Of a stretch of 64,000 nt of DNA, positions 60,945 through 64,000 are shown one piece after another; positions within the stretch are counted from its first letter, which is position 1; each line of letters begins with the position of its first letter. The DNA is taken from the NCBI RefSeq assembly GCF_024172095.1, contig NZ_JAMZDX010000001.1:90001-154000 (forward strand). The letters run 5' to 3'. Below the pieces are notes generated by a model. That model worked only from the letters and a program-made list of their open reading frames with translations. It was not told the DNA's origin and did not search any database. The translations under genes and the position numbers were made by a program. The stretch comes from Kitasatospora cinereorecta. Lineage in GTDB: Bacteria; Actinomycetota; Actinomycetes; Streptomycetales; Streptomycetaceae.

Positions 60945-61520
60945 TCAGACGTTGACGCCGAAGTCCTGCGCGATGCCGACCAGGCCGGAGGCGTAACCCT
61001 GGCCGATGGCACGGAACTTCCACTCGGCGCCGTTGCGGTACAGCTCGCCGAAGATCATGGCGGTCTCGGTCGCCGCGTCCTCGGAGAGGTCGTAGCGGGC
61101 GATCTCGGCGCCGCCGGCCGCGTTCAGCACGCGGATGTACGCGTTGCGGACCTGGCCGAAGCTCTGGCCGCGGGAGACCGCGTCGTAGATCGACACCGGG
61201 AAGGTGATCCGGGTGACGTCGGCGGGCAGGCCGGCCAGGTTGACGTTGATCTGCTCGTCGTCGCCCGCGCCCTCGCCGGTGCGGTTGTCGCCGGTGTGGA
61301 CGACGGTGCTGTCCGGGGTGCTGGTGTTGTTGAAGAAGACGAAGTGACGGTCGGAGTACACCTTGCCGTCGTTGTTGAGGACGATCGCGCTGGCGTCGAG
61401 GTCGAACTCGGCGCCGGTGGTGGTCCGGACGTCCCAGCCGAGGCCGACGGTGACCGCGGTCAGGCCCGGGGCCTCCTTGGTCAGCGAAACGTTGCCACCC
61501 TTGGAGAGGCTCACTGGCAT
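60945..61520 (-). CDS. terD: TerD-family tellurium resistance/stress protein
   Basis: A 191-residue TerD-domain protein (PF02342), exactly the usual length. It begins with [19 protein letters not shown] and has the calcium-binding aspartates in [17 protein letters not shown] and [22 protein letters not shown], the two acidic loops of the family. TerD proteins bind calcium and affect stress tolerance and differentiation in streptomycetes. GAAGGGA lies eight bases before ATG 61520. It is monocistronic. Confidence 0.94.
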
Positions 61521-61640
61521 GGTGTGTGGTGTCCCTTCGGTCGCTACTGCCGGGAAGAACGCGGGCCGGCGGGTCCATGGTTCCACCGCGACGGTGGGTT
61601 CCGTCACGAACCGTCGGTGTTCGGTGCGCCGCGGATGGTC

Positions 61641-62138: not shown

Positions 62139-62222
62139 TGTCCCGGGTGGCGGGGGAAGCCGTGCGCCGGAAGTGCGATTAACCGCGTGACGGGGAGGTC
62201 GGGCGGGCGGGATGATGGGCGC

Positions 62223-62654
62223 ATGCCTGAGCCCATTCGCGTCCGCGGGTCTGTCGTCGTCCCCGACGCCGAGCTCGTCTGGCGCTTCTCCCGTTCCTCC
62301 GGCCCCGGTGGCCAGCACGTCAACACCTCCGACACCCAGGTCGAGCTGCGGTACGACCTGGCCGCGTCCGAGGCACTGCCGCCGGTCTGGAAGGCGCGCG
62401 CCCTCGAACGGCTCGCCGGGCGACTGGTCGACGGCCGCGTCCTGGTCGTCCGCGCCTCCGAGCACCGCTCGCAGTGGCGCAACCGCGAGGTCGCCGCGGC
62501 GCGGCTCGCCTCGCTGCTCGGCGAGGCCACCGCCCCGCCGCCGAAGGCCCGGCGGGCCACCAAGCCGACCCGGGGCATGATCGAACGCCGCCTGGAGAAC
62601 AAGCGGCACCGCGCGAGCCTCAAGGAAGGCCGCGGCCGCATCCGCCCGGAGTGA
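62223..62654 (+). CDS. arfB: Alternative ribosome-rescue factor / peptidyl-tRNA hydrolase ArfB
   Basis: A 143-residue class I release factor-like protein. The GGQ loop is SGPGGQHVN (about 27-35), with the following T-S-D-T-Q-V-E-L strand. The C-terminal tail is basic (KARRATKPTRGMIERR, ENKRHRASLKEGRG), which enters the mRNA channel in ArfB. It rescues stalled ribosomes by hydrolysing peptidyl-tRNA. ATG 62223 fixes the conserved start. An imperfect copy of the palindromic repeat follows its stop. Confidence 0.94.
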   Translation: MPEPIRVRGSVVVPDAELVWRFSRSSGPGGQHVNTSDTQVELRYDLAASEALPPVWKARALERLAGRLVDGRVLVVRASEHRSQWRNREVAAARLASLLGEATAPPPKARRATKPTRGMIERRLENKRHRASLKEGRGRIRPE

Positions 62655-62781: not shown

Positions 62782-63318
62782 TCAGCCCAGTTGGCGGTAG
62801 GCGGAGCGGAAGTAGAGCAGGGGGCGTCCGGAGGGGTCGGGGACGGTGGCTTCGAGGACGCGGCCGAGGACGAGGGTGTGGTCGCCGGCGGGGATGCGCT
62901 GTTCGGTGCGGCACTCGACGGTGGCGAGGGCGCCGTCGACGAGCGGGGCGCCGGAGTGGGGGCCGCGGTGGTGCGGGGTGTCGGCGAACAGCAGGCGGTC
63001 GCTGAGGCGCCCCTTCATGGCGAACCGGGAGGCGAGCGTCCGCTGCTGTTCGGCGAGCAGGGAGACGGCCCAGGTGTCGGTGCGGGCGAGCAGCTCGTCC
63101 ATCCGGGAGTCCTCACGGACGGAGATCAGCACCAGCGGCGGCTCCAGCGAGACCGACAGGAACGAGGTCGCGGTCATCCCGACGTCCTCGCCGTCCTCGG
63201 GGTCGTGGGCGGTCACCAGCGTCACCCCGGAGGCGAGCTGGGAGAGCGCGGCCCGGAACTCGTCGGGGCTCGCGGTGGGCGCGGCGGAGGGCTGTGGGGA
63301 GCTGTACACGTACCGCAC
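62782..63318 (-). CDS. Flavin reductase-like FMN-binding protein
   Basis: A 178-residue protein of the flavin reductase-like domain family (PF01613), split-barrel fold. Motifs are FRAALSQLASGVTLVTAHD, VGMTATSFLSVSLEPPLVLI (the FMN-binding segment), AVSLLAEQQRTLASRFA and GDHTLVLGRVLEA with the conserved G-D-H. It may supply reduced flavin to a monooxygenase; none is adjacent. The likely start is GTG 63318. It is divergent from the cdgB-like gene. Confidence 0.88.
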   Translation of the reverse strand: MRYVYSSPQPSAAPTASPDEFRAALSQLASGVTLVTAHDPEDGEDVGMTATSFLSVSLEPPLVLISVREDSRMDELLARTDTWAVSLLAEQQRTLASRFAMKGRLSDRLLFADTPHHRGPHSGAPLVDGALATVECRTEQRIPAGDHTLVLGRVLEATVPDPSGRPLLYFRSAYRQLG

Positions 63319-63664
63319 GGTAGTACCCGTGTCCGGTCACCGGTATCGGGCCCTGGTCGTAGGACCGGCTCGGCCGGTGGGCTGAGCCGGGCACGCGTCC
63401 GTGCGAGCTGACTCACTCTCAGGAGTGAGCGGGGCTTGAGAAGGTCGCTGGTCGGACCGACGTGAAGGTGGTCCGCTGTCAGGGATTGCCCTGGTTTCGG
63501 TAGGTTCTCCGGGATTGACTGGCGTGCACATTGTGTGATTTGAGTCACAGTGGCAGGCTATTGCTGACCGAGCGTGCCTATCGCAGTGCTCCCTGTGATT
63601 CAGTTCTTCTGGCAATCGGACGATAACCATCAAGACCTATCCGAAGCAGCCGGGGAGCCCCCGC
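63319..63664. other. 346-base regulatory region before the cdgB-like gene
   Basis: The region holds promoters of two divergent genes. It contains the Crp-type site at 63534-63549 and, overlapping its right half, CACAGTGGCA (63546-63555), partly similar to the BldD box core. No coding frame is convincing here. Confidence 0.6.
63534..63549. promoter_or_regulatory. Crp-type binding site before the cdgB-like gene
   Basis: TGTGA-TTTGAG-TCACA is a perfect CRP-consensus palindrome and also fits the streptomycete Crp pattern GTG-N6-G-N-CAC. It lies 116-131 bases before ATG 63665, a suitable place for regulation of the diguanylate cyclase gene. Binding is inferred. Confidence 0.65.
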
Positions 63665-64000
63665 ATGGAAGCCGAGTCGGAGCCCTACGTCCGCCTCGCG
63701 ACCCTCCGCACCTTGCACCGGGTCGTGGCGGACCTCAACGCTGCCCGGAGCCTGGCCGGCACCCTTCAGGCCGTGGTGGAAGGCGCCGTGCACGGGCTCG
63801 GGTTCGACGCGGCGGCGGTGAGTCTGGTCCGGCCGGACGGCGACCTGGTGATCGCGGCGGTCTGGGAGATCGAGGAGAGCGCCTTCGGCGGCCCGGCCGT
63901 CCTGCTCGGCCAGGTGGGCTCGCGCGAGTCGTGGGAGCGGATGCTGGGCGTCGCCGACCACTGGGGCACGCTGCGCTTCCTGCCGTTCGACCGGGGTTGG
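63665..64000 (+). CDS. cdgB: CdgB-like diguanylate cyclase, N-terminal part (truncated by window end)
   Basis: The first 112 residues of a longer protein; the frame is open at the window end. The sequence begins MEAESEPYVRLATLRTLHRV and continues with a GAF-like sensor domain (ARSLAGTLQAVVEGAV, AVSLVRPDGDLVIAAVW, GQVGSRESWERMLGVA). This matches my memory of CdgB of S. coelicolor (GAF-PAS-GGDEF), a c-di-GMP synthase controlled by BldD. The catalytic GGDEF is not in the window, so the assignment rests on the N-terminus. GGGGAG precedes the ATG. Confidence 0.75.
   Translation, partial: MEAESEPYVRLATLRTLHRVVADLNAARSLAGTLQAVVEGAVHGLGFDAAAVSLVRPDGDLVIAAVWEIEESAFGGPAVLLGQVGSRESWERMLGVADHWGTLRFLPFDRGW

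Follow-up and report, generated by a model that had tools for sequence, protein, structure and literature searches.

A predicted Crp site conserved unusually deeply in the cdgB promoters of the Streptomycetaceae

In streptomycetes, c-di-GMP, acting via BldD, decides between growth and sporulation. The locus analyzed here, which lies in a 64-kb window (the whole 64,000-nucleotide stretch of DNA studied) from Kitasatospora cinereorecta, raises the question of whether another second messenger, cAMP, has a say in that decision through its receptor Crp. An earlier note had drawn attention to a perfect TGTGA-N6-TCACA palindrome at 63534-63549, 116 bases ahead of the start of a cdgB-like gene. If this palindrome is a Crp operator, cAMP, a germination signal, would be a direct input to c-di-GMP synthesis, and two second messengers that have mostly been studied apart in streptomycetes would be joined. 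The sequence and the position of the site were both borne out, with 0 mismatches in TGTGATTTGAGTCACA and an ATG at 63665, 116 after the last base of the palindrome; the site also matches the S. coelicolor Crp pattern, GTG(N)6GNCAC as quoted in PMC10033298, as had been proposed. The features of the locus are as follows.

62782..63318, minus strand: flavin-reductase-like gene of 178 aa (Pfam Flavin_Reduct), divergent neighbor of cdgB
Between the divergent reductase-like gene and cdgB: intergenic region of 346 bp
63534..63549: Crp-type palindrome TGTGATTTGAGTCACA (block A), an exact match to TGTGA-N6-TCACA
63561..63578, plus strand: block B, TTG.TGACC..G.GT.CC, a conserved block that holds TGACCGAGCGTGC
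63594..63604, plus strand: block D, TGTGATTCAGT, a conserved block at fixed spacing
63652..63657, plus strand: probable ribosome binding site GGGGAG of cdgB, read by eye
63665..64000, plus strand: cdgB, the first 112 codons inside the window (open reading frame and Pfam domains)

The cdgB gene extends past the end of the window; read from the whole genome (L006:5665-7659), its product comprises 664 aa in full and displays the domain order GAF-PAS-GGDEF with an intact GGDEF motif (Pfam and reading of the protein), which is the architecture given for CdgB (PMC6205966). Assignment of the window gene as a CdgB orthologue and predicted diguanylate cyclase is supported by this reading, and diguanylate cyclase activity has been published for S. 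coelicolor CdgB. In S. venezuelae, a putative reductase is listed at the equivalent place beside cdgB (PMC3781837, Table 1). Neither a sigma-70-like promoter nor a terminator was recognized in 63300-63700. Farther out, the frame at 60945-61607 (minus strand) looks from its translation like a TerD-type protein and the frame at about 62220-62654 (plus strand) like an ArfB-like peptide release factor. Between the divergent genes, nearer the reductase, lies an inverted repeat, CTCACTC-TCAG-GAGTGAG, at 63412-63429, which is not kept in the promoter alignment.

Whether the palindrome exceeds what chance would supply depends on how strictly it is defined. With up to one mismatch allowed, 1 match was found in the 64-kb window against 0.72 expected, and 54 of 100 shuffles contained at least one, so a near-match somewhere in 64 kb is unremarkable. 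An exact palindrome in the 346-bp intergenic region, by comparison, is expected 1.3e-4 times from base composition alone. The 8.64-Mb genome holds 7 exact copies of TGTGA-N6-TCACA versus 0 for a reversed-pattern control; 69 genomes of the same genus hold 667 versus 27 (copies outnumbering the control in 69/69), and 12 genomes of other Streptomycetaceae hold 103 versus 1. Judged by these counts, the pattern behaves like the site of a working regulator in Kitasatospora. When the genes around the 7 genomic copies are taken as open frames rather than annotated genes, 5 copies are clear of genes, 1 overlaps the end of pyrF, and 1 (L239) is intergenic only if the OYE-family gene starts where the family profile starts. 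Exact palindromes elsewhere in the genome include the following.

L237:3030-3045: at the end of pyrF
L238:3018: before a POT peptide transporter/response regulator pair
L239:2993: before an OYE/MarR pair
L241:2977: before an FAA hydrolase-gltX stretch
L242:3033: before a TetR/AraC pair

A further exact palindrome, TGTGAACTGCCTCACA, is located at L240:3079-3094 (G000:C1:284578-284593), 101 bp before nuoA of respiratory complex I. The 16-mer itself, taken as a sequence, is found in 8/8 other Kitasatospora genomes among the matches listed and in 6/9 Streptomycetaceae genomes whose matches were listed in full.

Lack of conservation in related genomes was among the outcomes that, according to the earlier note, would refute its proposal; the palindrome was, to the contrary, observed with at most one arm mismatch in 159 of 161 cdgB promoters of the family; all ten arm bases are kept in 151, although these counts, based on one promoter per species and on species related by descent, are not independent events. 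The 161 promoters represent 69 species of the same genus and 92 species of 15 other Streptomycetaceae genera, that is, 92 of 93 other-genus genomes; the one left out, G125, carries an exact site 157 bp before its cdgB match. A CdgB match was obtained at E 1e-60 in 68/69 genus genomes (in G013, cdgB is split across two contigs) and at E 1e-40 in 121/121 Streptomycetaceae genomes searched. Two equal-scoring CdgB matches were returned for G129, of which one was used, and weaker second CdgB-like matches occur in G004, G062, G111, G122, G138, G142, and G143; because each gene was taken to begin where its protein match begins, leader lengths may be inaccurate in some cases. Of 80 named records, 79 include upstream sequence, and in this set, which partly duplicates the 161 promoters, the site is exact in 78/79 and has one arm mismatch in 1/79. 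In 7/8 of the imperfect sites, the sole change is in the outermost T, which is not part of the GTG/CAC core. GTG-N8-CAC is present in 158/159 promoters with the site, and GTG(N)6GNCAC on the plus strand in 145/159. Mean consensus with genera weighted equally, calculated from 130 of the first 131 promoters (30 later additions are not in the profile), is 0.98 for the arms, 0.67 for the spacer, and 0.45 for the 60 bp upstream. Within the spacer (63540-63544), position 8 is T in 159/159, position 7 is kept in 143/159, and position 11 in 146/159, which is stricter than the Crp consensus asks. Outside the Streptomycetaceae, a CdgB-like match at E 1e-30 was obtained in 10/197 class-level genomes, with best-match identities of 37-50%, and the palindrome was found in 0/10 of the 545-600 bp regions upstream of these genes, including the 545 bp upstream in L265; L272 and L273, in which the match lies inside longer proteins, are poor tests. 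For a predicted Crp site, the conservation within the family is unusually deep, and this depth is the notable part of the result.

The palindrome does not stand alone. Counted from its first base, strict block B begins at +27 or +28 in 132/159 promoters, and block D begins at +60 (82 promoters) or +61 (77 promoters) in 159/159 site-bearing promoters, with at least 9 of 11 bases retained. The two cdgB promoters that lack the palindrome (2/161; G094 and G081) contain neither strict block B nor block D, the best match to D reaching 7 of 11; because all three elements are absent from the same two promoters, the palindrome, block B, and block D look like one module. In G094, TTGACC is present 245 bp upstream. 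The fixed spacing also links the palindrome to the side facing cdgB, which bears on the alternative that the divergent flavin reductase gene is the one served by the site. That gene does share the intergenic region, the palindrome being 216 bp from the reductase start used, but conservation toward the reductase is poor (0.45) in comparison with blocks B and D at their set distances on the other side, and service to the reductase is considered highly improbable. In contrast to the constant distance from the palindrome, the distance from block D to the ATG ranges from 54 to 206 bp across promoters, and this variable length after block D suggests D as a core promoter mark. Block D possibly marks the core promoter region, and it may be an undescribed core promoter element or a regulator site. 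With a -10 region placed in D, the palindrome center would fall at about -64, near the position of class-I activators. As an observation apart, block D is conserved as well as the Crp-type site and fits no motif tried. Three readings were dropped by eye: a -10 formed by TGTGAT of block D, since its second position is not A; a WhiG-type -10 at 63619-63626, since several genera do not keep it; and a -35 in block B paired with block D, since the spacer would be too long.

Which protein would occupy the palindrome can be approached from the regulators encoded alongside it. The genome encodes one clear Crp orthologue (C6:219405-220082), which shares 55% identity over 224 residues with chain 3d0s_A and whose recognition helix, ASRETVNKAL, is identical to that of this chain, as well as one PF00211 adenylate cyclase. 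The solved structures of this regulator type are 3d0s, Crp of M. tuberculosis, and 4byy, GlxR of Corynebacterium glutamicum. A Crp match at E 1e-40 was observed in 120/121 Streptomycetaceae genomes. In the exception, G079, a one-contig assembly, crp lies in pieces in several frames (L281, G079:C1:3069729-3070339) and the cdgB palindrome is perfect, a combination that may mean that crp decayed recently or was missequenced, or that may count against Crp; in G094 and G081, Crp is present and the cdgB site absent. The retention of the site in G079 despite the broken crp frame could favor another TGTGA-binding protein of the Crp/Fnr family, not a cAMP receptor, as its user, and a second Crp/Fnr protein, with the helix ASREAVARVL, is indeed encoded in the genome. 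Nevertheless, no full-length match to this second protein, even at low identity, was found in G082 (7 genomes searched, E 0.01), whose cdgB site is exact, and Crp itself is nearly ubiquitous in the family; we regard use of the site by such a relative as quite improbable and infer that Crp is the binder. Published binding data for Streptomyces Crp include no shift on a cya promoter (PMC10033298) and binding to all promoter regions tested (PMC12093943), as these sources report.

A role for BldD at the same promoter had been proposed in the form of a half-site (CACAGTG) overlapping the palindrome. Measured against the BldD box TNAC(N)5GTNA (PMC4151990), an overlapping BldD-like match, GCACATTGTGTGA at 63526, is present in the window with 5 of 6 specified bases, but it is not conserved: an overlapping match at the same place occurs in 15/159 promoters, any overlapping 5-of-6 match in 51/159, and CACAGTG in 8/159. 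Block B, by comparison, holds TGACCGAGCGTGC at 63565-63577, a 5-of-6 BldD-box-like sequence that is in place in 157/159 promoters (6 of 6 in 0); given that one 5-of-6 match per promoter is about chance level, only this fixed place supports block B as a BldD box. The center of TGACCGAGCGTGC is 29.5 or 30.5 bp from the palindrome center, or about three helical turns. A BldD box 30 bp downstream, in block B, thus appears likelier than the overlapping half-site, and neighboring sites are predicted rather than competition for overlapping DNA. The wider suggestion of the earlier note, that cAMP and c-di-GMP control meet at one promoter, remains plausible in view of the published binding of BldD to cdgB in Streptomyces, although the overlapping BldD site that it included is unsupported. 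Specifically, BldD binds the cdgB promoter by EMSA in S. ghanaensis (PMC7026642), binding is stated also for S. coelicolor and S. venezuelae, and repression of cdgB by BldD is stated in PMC7911125.

MtrA and WhiA are published binders of this promoter as well. For MtrA, binding to cdgB has been published in both S. coelicolor and S. venezuelae (PMC5845573). Set against the MtrA consensus (PMC5650626), block B resembles the first repeat in its left half but shows no fit to the right repeat; block B is therefore a candidate site for either BldD or MtrA. Because MtrA and BldD bind the promoter in Streptomyces, and because spacer positions 7, 8, and 11 are so strongly kept, the palindrome might be retained for a reason other than Crp, for instance because it belongs to a larger promoter element or to an MtrA/BldD complex. 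The arms, however, are an exact fit to Crp but fit neither the BldD box nor the MtrA repeats as published, the palindrome also precedes other genes such as nuoA with different spacers, and no Rfam RNA matched in 63000-64000; retention for such a reason is deemed very improbable. WhiA, for its part, is reported to bind crp and cdgB in sporulating S. venezuelae, with apparent repression of crp and a moderate apparent repression of cdgB (PMC3781837). The WhiA element GACAC/GTGTC was found at no fixed place, the commonest place accounting for 17/130 promoters; as ~30% of WhiA targets are without a GACAC element (PMC3781837), its absence is compatible with WhiA.

On balance, the palindrome is probably a cAMP-Crp operator in the cdgB promoter that forms a module with blocks B and D and most likely activates during growth, with BldD-c-di-GMP and WhiA as brakes. 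Under this proposal, the palindrome would be the operator of a Crp of the SCO3571/GlxR type and part of one old module with the two downstream blocks. Bound there with cAMP, ~53 bp upstream of D (the probable core promoter), Crp would most likely activate cdgB in a class-I-like manner in germination and vegetative growth, the class-I geometry being a guess, no sigma-70-like promoter having been found. CdgB would then produce c-di-GMP, which would load BldD, and BldD, whose repression of cdgB is published, would in return limit the gene, perhaps via the BldD-like block, which lies some three helical turns farther downstream than the Crp site. At sporulation, WhiA would lower cdgB both directly and by removing its activator, Crp, and MtrA, a published binder of the promoter, would also modulate cdgB.

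The activating sign is what we infer, and the reverse, in which bound Crp would repress cdgB and cAMP would thereby lower c-di-GMP, must be weighed against it. Precedents for such repression exist in that cAMP-CRP binds and represses gcsA in P. putida and exerts negative control over CdgA in V. cholerae (reviewed in PMC11139211), and the position of the site is compatible with repression. Nevertheless, the fixed place of the site ~53 bp upstream of D is better suited to an activator if D is the core promoter, and extra crp disturbed sporulation in S. albus, as extra c-di-GMP would (PMC5816538); repression is thus viewed as unlikely, albeit worth keeping in mind. Activation by Crp is also in keeping with published physiology: germination is accompanied by cAMP accumulation and is poor in crp or cya mutants (reviewed in PMC5693915); S. 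venezuelae sporulates faster when cdgB is lost, though in S. coelicolor the loss delays development on some media (PMC6205966); and the phenotype of S. albus with extra crp is white as well as disturbed in sporulation (PMC5816538). Together with the WhiA binding described above, these phenotypes fit Crp as the activator, BldD-c-di-GMP as the brake, and WhiA as the regulator that shuts off both.

A more ambitious version, which we advance tentatively and at somewhat less than even chances, holds that the three-part module predates the split of the Streptomycetaceae genera, that cAMP-Crp drives c-di-GMP synthesis while BldD-c-di-GMP, bound next to it on approximately the same helical face, keeps this synthesis in check, that WhiA, through repression of crp as well as cdgB, completes a feed-forward switch from growth to sporulation or back, and that block D is an as yet undescribed promoter element or regulator site. 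More generally, the near-universal presence of the site before cdgB in Kitasatospora, Streptomyces, and their relatives suggests that one signaling molecule steers another in the choice between growth and spore formation.

Several known systems invite comparison. The Crp (SCO3571) regulon of S. coelicolor, with its motif GTG(N)6GNCAC and 393 reported targets (Gao et al., 2012, as quoted in PMC10033298 and PMC5816538), involves the same regulator family and motif, to which 145/159 of the cdgB promoters conform. Crp was not found named as a regulator of cdgB in the portions of the literature searched, although the link may already stand in the Crp ChIP-chip study of Gao et al. (2012) or in the CdgB study of Tran et al. 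(2011). Control of cdgB by BldD, WhiA, and MtrA in Streptomyces concerns the same orthologous promoter (PMC7026642, PMC7911125, PMC3781837, PMC5845573). GlxR of C. glutamicum and mycobacterial Crp are orthologues of the Crp encoded here and share sites of the GTG-N8-CAC type, and the recognition helix of 3d0s matches that of the Crp encoded here; the present case differs from both in that, among the genomes searched, Streptomycetaceae alone yielded a CdgB-type gene with a site-bearing promoter. Lastly, gcsA of P. putida and cdgA of V. cholerae likewise place transcription of a c-di-GMP synthase gene under Crp-cAMP (PMC11139211). Whereas those cases lower c-di-GMP in unicellular proteobacteria, activation is proposed here, in sporulating actinobacteria and with c-di-GMP feeding back through BldD on the very promoter that Crp would activate.
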